Origin: Spirochaetota bacterium
GTDB lineage: Bacteria; Spirochaetota; Spirochaetia; Treponematales; UBA12059
DNA: 64,000 nt
Reading direction: 5' to 3'
Assembly: GCA_026398615.1 (NCBI GenBank)
Contig: JAPLSN010000036.1
Location: forward strand, 62,001-126,000
The position numbers and the translations under genes were made by a program. This document shows, one piece after another, positions 27,312 through 48,887 of the stretch. The notes beneath the pieces were generated by a model. The model had not been told where the DNA came from. It did no database searches and saw nothing but the letters and a program-made list of their open reading frames with translations. Each line of letters begins with the position of its first letter. Position 1 is the first letter of the stretch.

Positions 27312-27435
27312 ATGGGGCAGGGTGCAGTGTAGCGCCATCCAGGCACAATCGTTGCAGAGTAGCCGAAAGCGGAAGAATCCGCCGCTGCGCCAGACTTTCC
27401 GGAAACGCCGGTGTCGTGACGTTTGCGTTATTATC

Positions 27436-27695: not shown

Positions 27696-28163
27696 ATGGA
27701 GCAGTGCCCCATGACTGACGGGGAAGCCTGGAAAATCAGTAAAAGCCTCAGGCAATCCAAAAATTATGGATGGATCATGACGGCTTTATCGCTCCCTTTT
27801 ATCGCTGCAATCGTCGTGAATTCGGTACGGGGTGATATCGTTATTGTGGCCGTGGTTTCCCCAATTACGCTCCTTTTCATTATCATGGCAGTCAATGGTT
27901 TTATCGCCGCGGCAAGATGCGCCGCGGACTTGCTCGGAAAAAGGACTTTTGCCGACCGGCGTGCCGTTACCGGGAAAAACTGGATATCCCGCAAGACATC
28001 GTTTTCCTATTATTTGCAATTCGGCAAATCCAAATATTCCGTGCCCAAGGAAATATACGACCGGATCGAGACAGGCGATGAAATGGACTTGCGGTTTACG
28101 GTCCGTTCCGGGCAACTGCTGTCGATGAAAAATTCCGCCGGCGAAAATTATCCGATGACATGA
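27696..28163 (+). CDS. Small membrane protein, function unknown
   Basis: A 155-residue protein with two membrane segments (about 24-44 and 47-72), then a soluble C-terminal domain with alternating strands (SFSYYLQFGKSKYSVPKE, MDLRFTVRSGQLLSMKN) resembling a small beta-barrel. The ribosome site AGGAGG is five bases before the ATG, the best in this region. Base composition is lower in GC than in neighbouring genes, and a transposase remnant adjoins its 3' end, so recent acquisition is possible. Confidence 0.7.
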   Translation: MEQCPMTDGEAWKISKSLRQSKNYGWIMTALSLPFIAAIVVNSVRGDIVIVAVVSPITLLFIIMAVNGFIAAARCAADLLGKRTFADRRAVTGKNWISRKTSFSYYLQFGKSKYSVPKEIYDRIETGDEMDLRFTVRSGQLLSMKNSAGENYPMT

Positions 28164-28466
28164 TACCCCGGGTTATTCTGGCCCATTCCGGCATCTCATC
28201 GAGCAGTTCGCGGCATCCTGCCCGAACATGGGCAAGGCTTCCGTACCGCCACTGCCAGCGATCCGTCACCTGGCTGGCCTCCACCGGGTTGTCGTCGATA
28301 TATGCAAACACCTGCAGGAACTCCCGCAAGCTTGCGATGATCCGTGAGAAGAACCGGCATCCCCAAACGTGTCCGGTGAATCCGGTAATCCTAGTGAAAA
28401 TGGTTGCCCATGATGCAGAAGTTCTCGATCCGGAAATCGTACTTCGTCTTCGCCCGCTTCACTGGT
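28164..28466 (-). pseudogene. Remnant of REP-associated tyrosine transposase (Y1_Tnp)
   Basis: Pieces of a Y1-type transposase occur in two frames on the minus strand: FSPVKRAKTKYDFRIENFCI followed by MGNHFH, the HUH motif, then a stop and frame change, then FTGHVWGCRFFSRIIASLRE and EFLQVFAYIDDNPVEA. About 15-20 residues that normally join these parts are missing. It is clearly inactive. It starts directly after the terminator of the LamG lipoprotein gene. Confidence 0.75.
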
Positions 28467-28515: not shown

Positions 28516-29766
28516 TCAGAGGGCGTTGCCGTAGAAAAGCTTGGCGACGTCTTCGGGAGTGAGCGCGACCCCGTAGAAGCTGACGTCCTTCAGCCAGCCT
28601 TTCAGGAAAAACGCTTCGCCATGATCGCCCGTCCCGATTAAAACAGGCCTGTCGGTCGACTCGATCCCGGGCAGCCCGACGCTCCCGACGAGCGCGCCGT
28701 CGACGTAGAGCGCGAGCTCGGCCCCGTTCCAGGTCGCGACGACGTGGGCCCATGCGTCCGCCCGCGACGCGAAGGGGAAACTCACCCGTTTCTCGCCGCT
28801 GTCCTGGCCGTTGCTCGACCCGCGCCAGACCAGGTTGCCGTTCTCGAAGTTGAGCGACCACGAGCGATCGCTCACGGGCTTTCCGTCATCGCCGATGTAC
28901 CACCATTTGTCGACGATGTATTTGTACGAATCGAAGCTGGATGTCTTGATCCAGAGCGACATCGAGAAGGAATCGACGTCCTTGAGCGCCTCGGAGCTTT
29001 CGATCCTCACGGAATCGCCGCCGTCAAGGTACGTCGCGTCACCGACGTCCGCCGGGACGACCGAAGGGCCGCCGGCCGAGAGGCCCGGATTGTTCCCGTA
29101 GACGTCCGCGCCGACCGGTACCGCCGCATCCTCGAAATTCCAGGTCGAGACCAGGGACGGATGATGGGCCTCACGGTCCACGGTCACGACGTAGGTCGAA
29201 CTCATTCCGTTCTCAGCGAAGACGCGGTATTCCACTGGCGCCTCGAAGTCGTTCGGTGTCTCGCCGCTCGTTTGGACCGCGCCGTTCACGGTCACGCGGG
29301 ATCCGTCGTGGCTGAAGGTCGCGATCAGGTTCTTTCTGTCGGTTCCCCACGGGAGCGTGAGGTTTATGGAACCGCCCGATATCGAAGCTTCGACGCCATT
29401 GATCGAGAAGGAGAGCATCTCGCGGCTGTCGGAAAGGATTGCGATCCAGCGAGCGCCGAGCGTAACGTCGGATTCGATGCGCACGGCCTTAAAATCCCAG
29501 GCTGCCGTGGCCGACGGATCCCCGAACCAGCCGTCGAAGGTAAAACCGTCCCGCGACGGATCCAAGGGGCGCGTCGCCAAGTCGCCGCGATCCACGACCT
29601 GCGACGGGATTTCGGATCCGCCGGCGGAATCGAACAAGATGACGAAAGTTTCCACGACGGGGTCTGCGGGCGTTTCTGCGGGCTGCAACGGGTTCGCGCA
29701 CCCGATCGCGAAGGCGAACGCGATTGCGCAGGCGATCAAGGAAATCGTTCCGCTCCGGTTATTCAT
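28516..29766 (-). CDS. LamG-domain surface lipoprotein
   Basis: A 416-residue lipoprotein (signal ending FAIGC). After the lipobox, residues 30-115 form a Listeria-Bacteroides (InlB B-type) repeat (FVILFDSAGGSEIPSQ to LGARW). A beta-sandwich segment of the cadherin-like / DUF5018 kind follows (FSINGVEASISGG, EYRVFAENGMSSTYVVTVD). The C-terminal 200 residues are a LamG/concanavalin-like domain (FSMSLWIKTSSFDS, WAHVVATWNGAELALYVDG, WLKDVSFYGVALTPEDV). This points to a cell-surface, carbohydrate-binding or adhesive role. GAGGAG precedes the ATG. A sigma-54 promoter and three regulator boxes lie upstream, next to the gene for a sigma-54 activator. Confidence 0.88.
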   Translation of the reverse strand: MNNRSGTISLIACAIAFAFAIGCANPLQPAETPADPVVETFVILFDSAGGSEIPSQVVDRGDLATRPLDPSRDGFTFDGWFGDPSATAAWDFKAVRIESDVTLGARWIAILSDSREMLSFSINGVEASISGGSINLTLPWGTDRKNLIATFSHDGSRVTVNGAVQTSGETPNDFEAPVEYRVFAENGMSSTYVVTVDREAHHPSLVSTWNFEDAAVPVGADVYGNNPGLSAGGPSVVPADVGDATYLDGGDSVRIESSEALKDVDSFSMSLWIKTSSFDSYKYIVDKWWYIGDDGKPVSDRSWSLNFENGNLVWRGSSNGQDSGEKRVSFPFASRADAWAHVVATWNGAELALYVDGALVGSVGLPGIESTDRPVLIGTGDHGEAFFLKGWLKDVSFYGVALTPEDVAKLFYGNAL

Positions 29767-29803: not shown

Positions 29804-29820
29804 TGCAATAACCATGCCAG
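29804..29820 (-). promoter_or_regulatory. Sigma-54 (-24/-12) promoter of the LamG lipoprotein gene
   Basis: On the minus strand CTGGCATGGTTATTGCA matches the RpoN consensus, with GG and GC separated by exactly ten bases. Transcription would start near 29793, about 27 bases before the ATG, with the GAGGAG ribosome site between them. Confidence 0.8.
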
Positions 29821-29854
29821 CTAGGCCGGCAGCTTGAACTGGGCTTTTTTCTGC

Positions 29855-29947
29855 TTCCGGAACGGTTCGCCGCCGCGTTTCGCGGAAGATCACCCCGATT
29901 CCGCTGCGATCGGCGTTCCGGAACGGAATGCCGGTTCCGGAACGGAA
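29855..29947 (-). promoter_or_regulatory. Three CCGTTCCGGAA boxes, probable activator binding sites
   Basis: The 11-base string CCGTTCCGGAA (core palindrome TTCCGGAA) occurs three times on the minus strand, within 29855-29865, 29916-29926 and 29935-29945. They lie about 65, 125 and 145 bases upstream of the predicted sigma-54 start, the usual place for enhancer sites of an NtrC-type activator. They fill the gap between the activator stop and the promoter. Confidence 0.7.
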
Positions 29948-32039: not shown

Positions 32040-33026
32040 AATCCCGCAGCTGAGGCGGATTCCGCTTTCAGCTACCCGGTAACGACCGTTGGCCTTGGCG
32101 GTCTCAATGACGAGTAGAGGTTTGCGCTGGCGGTCGCTCGATATCGTACAGCCTTGAGATGAGGGAGATCGCTTCGCGAGCCCGCCCTTTCCCCTGCGCC
32201 GCGATGGACGCATCGACCAACTTCCGCCGCGCATGCGCCCAACACGCAACATGGGTAATGCCTTCTTTCTCGCCTATCGCGCTGTAACCAGCGTACCCGT
32301 CGGTCTGGAGGTACCCGCGCCAGTCAATGAGGAATTTCTAGATGAAATTGGCTTCGCGCGAGACATGGTAGCGGTACAGGATCACGGCCCGGCGGCCCAC
32401 CGGTCATGACCCCCATGTACGACTTGCTCGTGTTCGGCCTTTCTTCCTCGCCCATGACCTGGAAGTACGTCTCGTCGCAATGGAGGCGCGGCGGCACAGG
32501 AGCGATGCGGAACTCGGTTGGATTTCCTGGCGCACCGGAACCGCCCACGGGTTTCACGACGTACTTCGGACGCACATGCGGATCACGACCATTTTCTGCG
32601 GGATCCCGTGAACCTGCTCCTTTCCCCCTTCCCCGATCTGCGTGAGTACGCAGCCGGGAGGGACTATCTTTTCTTCATCGGAAAGATCCACGACGATATC
32701 GATGCGGGCGAGGTGCTCGTCCGGGGGCTTCCTGCCCGGCTTCGCCCGCGTGTACTCGGTCTTCCGAATGCGGACGGTTTCGGTTCCGGCTCCTTCATCT
32801 GGTGGCGACGCGAAGGTTCCGGCTTCGATGAAGAGGAGCCCCCTGTCTCTTGTCTTCTTGGGTGAGCTTTTCCGAGCTTTTACCGTATTTCCGCGCCCGT
32901 AACATGCGTATCTCTTCCTGCTGGGCGGCATTCGTCCGTGCCAGTTCGGCGACGATGCGGCAAGGCTTGTCATTTCTCAGCTTGATTGAGGCGGTTTTTT
33001 CCCCGTATTTCTGCTGCATCAGACAT
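32040..33026 (-). pseudogene. Degenerate IS66-family transposase (TnpC)
   Basis: Fragments of the IS66 TnpC transposase occur in order but in shifting frames: the N-terminal helical region (CRIVAELARTNAAQQEEIR, ARKYGKSSEKL), the GRKPP..HLARIDIVVDLSDEEK zinc-finger part, IRPKYVVKP, the DDE-domain start DETYFQVMGEEERPNTSKSY, and, in another frame, WRGYLQTDGYAGYSAIGEKE with THVACWAHARRKLVDASIAA. At least three frameshifts or stops make it inactive. A TATACT box sits six bases before the original ATG. Confidence 0.85.
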
Positions 33027-33065
33027 GAACCAAGTATAACACAGTATGCTTTTTCTATCACGCGA

Positions 33066-33182
33066 TTACGGCACGCTGGAATGCGAATTACTCTTGTGCT
33101 TCCTCCAGAAGTCGATGCCCCGCAAGAAGAGCCGCACTTGTTCACGGTCGATCTCTCGGGCTTTGGCCTCGTCGGATGGAAA
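33066..33182 (-). pseudogene. IS66 TnpB (Orf2) C-terminal fragment
   Basis: A short piece reading AREIDREQVRLFLRGIDFWR and ending HSSVP-stop resembles the C-terminus of the IS66 accessory protein TnpB. It lies upstream of tnpC, the normal IS66 order, and is cut where the PAP2 phosphatase gene ends. The left end of the element is missing. Confidence 0.6.
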
Positions 33183-47690: not shown

Positions 47691-48887
47691 ATGAAACGCA
47701 TCGTATCGCTGCTTGCGGCGGTGTCATTGGCCATGTGCGCCGTTTCGGCGCATGCCCAGACCGCCGGCGAACCGGACGCCCAGTCGGTTCTCGAAAAGGC
47801 CCGGGAAGAGTACAATTCTCCCGACCAACCCGAAATCCCCGATCAACCGGAATCTCCCGAAGCACCCGGCATTCCCGAATCCCCGGCCCCTTCCCGGGAA
47901 GGGGAAACGTCTGAATACGAATTCACGCCCTTTCAGGTTTCATGGGTGCCCGGCATCGGCGAACCCGGCGGCATCCGGAACGTCGGCATCGCGCTCGGCT
48001 GCATCGGAACCATCACCGGCAACGTGGACGGCTTCGCGGCCGCGACCATCTTCAACATCGCGGACGGTTACGTTCGGGGCTTCCAGGGCACCGGAGTATT
48101 CAACATCGCAGACGGCTACGTCCAGGGCTTCCAGGGCTCGGGCGTATTCAACATCGGCGCGAACGTCGACGGCTTTCAGGTGGCCGGCGTCTTCAACATC
48201 GCCGAAAACGTCCAGGGCTTCCAGGTGGCCGGCGTCCTCAACGCCGCCGGGAAGACCGACGGCATCCAGGTGTCCGGCGTCGTCAACATCGCCGAAACGA
48301 ACTCGGGAGCGATGATCGGGCTCGTCAACGTCGCCGAACGGGCGGACGGCCTCGTGCTCGGGCTCGTCAACGTCGTAGGCAACGGGATCTACAGCGGCAT
48401 CGCCTGGTACGAGTTCGATTCCCGCATGTGTTACGGCGGCATCCAGACCGGCACCCCGTTCCTCTACGGCGTCTATTACGCGGGCGCTCTCCGCGACGAC
48501 CTCTTCGAACGTGCCGAATCCTTCGTGGCGGGCATGGCCATAGGCCACCGCTTCGGAGACCGGGGATCTTACATTGATCTCGACGTGGGTTGCGAAAGCA
48601 ACATCGGCCCCCGGCTCGACGGGCTGGAAGCGGCAGCGGGAAGCGACGGACCCCGCTGTTCTTCCGACTGGCAACCTTGGGTCTCCGCCCGGCTCACGGC
48701 CGGATTCCCCTTGGCCGGAAGGCTGGAAATCTTCGGTGGCCTGAAGGTCGACGCGGATTTCATGGGCGCGGACAACGTTCCCGTCTTCCTCCGGAACGGC
48801 ACGTCGGGCGAGCAAGGGCGGGACGGAAACATCCTCGGCCTCGACTGCCGCGCCTGGCCGAAGTTTTTCCTCGGTCTCAAGATCTGA
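47691..48887 (+). CDS. LA_2272-type surface repeat-containing protein
   Basis: A 398-residue exported protein (signal MKRIVSLLAAVSLAMCAVSA, cleavage near AHA|Q). A proline-rich segment is followed by about seven tandem repeats of 18-20 residues built on GFQVAGVFNIAENV: each has a hydrophobic x-x-G-V-F-N-I core, as in the Leptospira LA_2272 surface-repeat family. The C-terminal 170 residues look like an outer-membrane beta-barrel (aromatic alternating strands ending WPKFFLGLKI). GGGAG precedes the ATG. Probably a surface-exposed outer-membrane protein. Confidence 0.78.
   Translation: MKRIVSLLAAVSLAMCAVSAHAQTAGEPDAQSVLEKAREEYNSPDQPEIPDQPESPEAPGIPESPAPSREGETSEYEFTPFQVSWVPGIGEPGGIRNVGIALGCIGTITGNVDGFAAATIFNIADGYVRGFQGTGVFNIADGYVQGFQGSGVFNIGANVDGFQVAGVFNIAENVQGFQVAGVLNAAGKTDGIQVSGVVNIAETNSGAMIGLVNVAERADGLVLGLVNVVGNGIYSGIAWYEFDSRMCYGGIQTGTPFLYGVYYAGALRDDLFERAESFVAGMAIGHRFGDRGSYIDLDVGCESNIGPRLDGLEAAAGSDGPRCSSDWQPWVSARLTAGFPLAGRLEIFGGLKVDADFMGADNVPVFLRNGTSGEQGRDGNILGLDCRAWPKFFLGLKI

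Follow-up and report, generated by a model that had tools for sequence, protein, structure and literature searches.

A putative one-component sigma-54 circuit with three palindromic sites upstream of a LamG lipoprotein gene in a Spirochaetota bacterium

The spacer between a sigma-54 activator gene and a predicted lipoprotein gene of a Spirochaetota bacterium contains a -24/-12 promoter and three exact copies of one box (Table 1). Because the boxes and a well-formed promoter lie between the two genes, we consider it probable (about 0.8) that the one-component activator binds the three sites and drives the neighbouring lipoprotein gene. The parts of this circuit, their spacing, the non-random clustering of the boxes and the presence of RpoN were computed directly. 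The account given in the first-pass annotation is most likely correct in outline. Positions refer to the window, i.e. the whole 64,000-nucleotide stretch of DNA that was analysed.

Table 1. Features of the activator-lipoprotein locus and its surroundings (window positions).
Feature	Position	Strand	Description
Predicted lipoprotein, 416 aa	28516..29766	minus	Signal peptide, List_Bact repeat, cadherin-like region, LamG_3
Activator-lipoprotein spacer, 182 bp	Activator stop (TGA, 29951-29949) to lipoprotein ATG (29766)	minus	TGGCATGGTTATTGCA/TGGCAtggttaTTGCA promoter and three boxes
-24/-12 promoter TGGCATGGTTATTGCA (as TGGCAtggttaTTGCA)	29819-29804	minus	10/11 consensus bases; predicted start about 29793
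Box A, CCGTTCCGGAA	29855..29865	minus	Core TTCCGGAA (8-bp palindrome); exact copy; centre about -65
Box B, CCGTTCCGGAA	29916..29926	minus	Within 12-bp palindrome CGTTCCGGAACG; exact copy; centre about -126
Box C, CCGTTCCGGAA	29935..29945	minus	Within 10-bp palindrome GTTCCGGAAC; exact copy; centre about -145
Hairpin from boxes B and C (RNA or single strand)	29914..29944	minus	11-nt perfect arms; begins 4 nt past activator stop
One-component sigma-54 activator, 616 aa	29949..31799	minus	GAF-like N-terminus, PAS, AAA+, lid, Fis-type HTH (weak match)
Decayed REP-associated tyrosine transposase	28150-28458	minus	Flanks the gene pair, opposite side from IS66
Decayed IS66 transposase	32107-33148	minus	Flanks the gene pair

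The three boxes share one orientation, with start-to-start distances of 61 and 19 bp. They had been described as three identical boxes, which holds for all three copies (3/3 exact). One correction concerns the box itself, which is not an asymmetric 11-mer: in every copy it makes up one side of a TTCCGGAA-centred palindrome. Palindromic sites of this kind would be better suited to binding by a Fis-type HTH dimer than a simple direct repeat.

The clustering of the boxes is not a product of chance, since none of 5000 dinucleotide-preserving shuffles of the spacer contained a 10- or 11-mer in triplicate, and the sole comparable cases in about 210 kb of the genome were two internal repeat arrays. 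These two, the only other cases of an 11-mer occurring three times within 185 bp, were an array at 48051-48299 in the window and a short tandem repeat in locus L113. The array at 48051-48299 repeats at intervals of 45, 48 and 90 bp, each divisible by three, and its consensus resembles repeated FNIADGYVQGFQ units. Allowing one mismatch, the box matched 14 times in the window against 3.6 expected, a number that 0 of 100 shuffles reached. Across the genome we counted 15 exact boxes, of which the 12 outside the spacer were scattered, the closest two being 396 bp apart; the trio in the spacer is the only tight cluster among these 15. Pattern searches of the genome for further box clusters found none among the matches listed. 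When the genome was scanned for further boxes near sigma-54 promoters, as proposed in the first-pass annotation, none of the 12 other exact copies had a site with at least 10 matches in the fetched 3 kb.

Promoter sequences were compared with the sigma-54 consensus GG-N10-GC in TGGCAC-N5-TTGCW surroundings (11 positions). The site upstream of the lipoprotein gene, which had been called near-perfect, matches 10 of the 11 positions and lies on the strand of its target. Searching the whole genome with TGGCAYN5TTGCW gave 5 matches versus 4 for the reversed control, i.e. the pattern is not enriched, and the weight of the promoter therefore comes from its location. At the genome rate of 5 matches in 3.38 Mb (both strands), about 1.3e-4 sites are expected in 182 bp of one strand. 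The predicted start was obtained from the usual 12-nt distance of sigma-54 promoters, setting the C of the -12 GC (29805) as -12, and leaves a leader of 27 nt to the ATG. Between this start and the ATG lies a Shine-Dalgarno sequence, GAGGAG, 6 nt 5' of the ATG. A TTG start at 29808 in the list of open reading frames was dropped, as it falls inside the promoter, while the ATG at 29766 with its Shine-Dalgarno sequence fits. Counted from the predicted start, the box centres near -65, -126 and -145 suit enhancer sites, in line with the earlier proposal. That proposal had named the absence of rpoN as a refutation; the genome encodes RpoN (PF04552, E 1.7e-50, C17:24885-25358).

Two further sigma-54-like sites were noticed. 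One, AGGCACAATCGTTGCA (10/11), lies at 27341-27356 (+) in the window after an ApbE gene, and has no clear target gene. The other, TGGCATGCTTCTTGCT, heads a same-strand gene run in L113 (G000:C26, 5901-13269) that ends in a receiver-type sigma-54 activator; this run looks like a further sigma-54 operon.

The regulator had been read as a GAF-PAS sigma-54 activator acting as a one-component system, and the domain searches, together with homology for the GAF part, bear this out. Pfam places a PAS domain at residues 171-278 and the sigma-54 interaction AAA+ domain at residues 309-472 (PF00158, E 1.4e-62), and the translation contains GESGTGKD and GSFTGA motifs, corresponding to a Walker motif and a GAFTGA-type loop. 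The first approximately 160 residues have no direct Pfam match; their assignment to GAF is by homology, as residues 3-282 share 32% identity with part of a GAF-PAS-GGDEF protein of a relative, in which this part is called GAF and PAS. HTH_8 at residues 573-613 scored weakly (20.2 bits versus a cut-off of 22) and aligns with the HTH of clear family members. Pfam found no Response_reg domain in the activator, although this domain is present in two of the genome's other activators. As far as the domains show, a sensory domain is thus present and a receiver absent. In total, the genome encodes nine strong sigma-54 activator domains.

The predicted lipoprotein contains a List_Bact repeat (residues 42-105), a weak cadherin-like match (142-199) and a LamG_3/concanavalin-like domain (248-408); the genome encodes no second LamG_3 protein. 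Its putative signal peptide ends in the lipobox-like AIGC (MNNRSGTISLIACAIAFAFAIGC), as read from the sequence. Against a receptor-binding lectin fold of clostridial neurotoxins, its LamG part scored below threshold (21.2 bits versus 23.8). This similarity most likely reflects the common concanavalin-like fold and is no evidence for a toxin.

Relatives of the locus were sought at several taxonomic levels. Among 23 genomes of the family we found no other member of the genus, and no ortholog of the activator or the lipoprotein. Nearly all of the activator matches listed for the family align via the AAA+ and HTH parts only, at about 33-50% identity, and their HTH sequences differ from that of the activator. 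The N-terminal part of the activator had no ortholog in the class sample and no relative in genome_contigs. The GAF-PAS-GGDEF protein mentioned above was rejected as an ortholog, since only a common sensory module is shared. Among 395 genomes of the class, the paired box was found in this genome only, plus one isolated match in genome G362. In genome_contigs 110 stretches had a similar box pair, and the activator motif was present in the fetched DNA of 0 of these 110. Lipoproteins of other families of the phylum have cadherin-like and LamG parts in common with this one; these relatives lacked both a good upstream sigma-54 site and, in the fetched DNA, the activator motif. A lack of orthologs does not equal a lack of conservation, and today's comparison neither confirms nor refutes the circuit.

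In the circuit that we propose, the GAF-PAS part of the activator would sense an intracellular cue, and the Fis-type HTH would bind as a dimer to each of the three palindromes that are centred on TTCCGGAA (near -65, -126 and -145). The AAA+ part would then remodel RNA polymerase-RpoN poised at TGGCATGGTTATTGCA, leading to transcription from about 29793 and production of the LamG lipoprotein. We infer DNA binding, transcriptional activation, the cue and the surface location of the lipoprotein as parts of this model.

The circuit type is well known and its mechanism is textbook knowledge; the present case is a sound further example, from one genome only. Work on Desulfovibrio vulgaris took those sigma-54 operons that lie together with an activator gene as the likeliest targets; the largest fraction of promoters lay within 100 nt of the closest activator site, and the predicted sites included palindromes (PMC4641369). 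Like that set, the locus described here has a receiver-less AAA+ activator encoded next to a -24/-12 promoter that is preceded by sites which include palindromes, but the Desulfovibrio set is backed by cross-species conservation, whereas the pair described here is known from one genome (PMC4641369). Sigma-54 has been broadly tied to control of the cell exterior, including lipoproteins (PMC3162934). The Rrp2-RpoN system of Borrelia likewise combines a sigma-54 activator with lipoprotein output, but Rrp2 is reported to act through rpoS, whereas here the promoter lies directly before the lipoprotein gene (PMC4014564, PMC3162934). NifA and NorR share with the activator the N-terminal GAF-type sensing, the AAA+ part and, going by its weak match, the HTH, and differ in that our activator has an extra PAS domain and a lipoprotein as its probable target. 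PrdR, NifA and NorR were among its best NCBIfam scores, with matches over the AAA+ part, from residue about 304 on only, and scores far below the curated cut-offs (294/795, 293/529, 284/476). Two papers contain TTCCGGAA together with sigma54; in the one examined it belongs to cloning primers, and no known activator site of this sequence was found. This palindrome is a candidate DNA site for an activator class whose targets often resist assignment. The locus leaves the general picture of sigma-54 control unchanged, and adds a concrete and readily testable set of regulator, sites, promoter and target from a little-studied genome.

Several observations count against control of the neighbouring gene, namely that no ortholog pair, and no paired box beside an activator, was found elsewhere, that the promoter pattern is unenriched, that the HTH falls just under the Pfam cut-off, and that boxes B and C form a hairpin beside the activator stop. 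The hairpin suggests a different division of roles, in which the neighbouring activator does drive a genuine sigma-54 promoter, only some of the copies are activator sites, and boxes B and C mainly end or protect the activator mRNA. Its perfect arms, its position just past the stop codon and its stability (-21.1 kcal/mol, z -3.27, equalled by 0 of 200 shuffles) speak for such a role. However, no run of T follows it, the terminator scan does not pick it, and a third exact copy, box A, lies outside it. Rfam gave no match. As a palindrome that occurs twice at short distance will always yield a hairpin, and box A is not part of this one, we take the hairpin to be a by-product or a second use of the boxes. 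We regard a mainly RNA-level role as unlikely, and keep a contribution to 3'-end formation of mRNA as a secondary reading. The boxes might also bind another regulator, with the sigma-54-like site being a chance match or served by another of the nine activators, a view with which the lack of enrichment over the reversed control agrees. Yet the site lies directly between the activator gene and the start codon at fitting distances, and no second box cluster among the matches listed hints at a wider regulon, which makes this explanation quite improbable.

The remains of mobile elements on both sides of the gene pair (IS66 and REP-associated tyrosine transposase) could suggest that such an element left the boxes behind as a repeat without a regulatory role. 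We judge this very improbable, as the matches listed for the genome include no second cluster of this kind, the boxes are not at the ends of either transposase remnant, and they lie at uneven distances from each other (61 and 19 bp).

The flanking remnants and the lack of orthologs allow, without showing, a joint arrival of the two genes. The G+C content across the two genes is about 0.62-0.64, like that of the surroundings, and recent foreign origin is therefore unsupported. An operator beside an activator was found at this locus only in the box searches of this genome, the 395 class genomes (with the isolated G362 match) and genome_contigs. A tentative and rather doubtful extension would be that a self-contained cassette of regulator, promoter and target, with a private operator, moved in as a unit between the mobile-element remains and works without a wider regulon. 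At 27696-28163 (+) in the window, a 155-aa open reading frame without a Pfam match lies in a stretch of lower G+C content (about 0.51).
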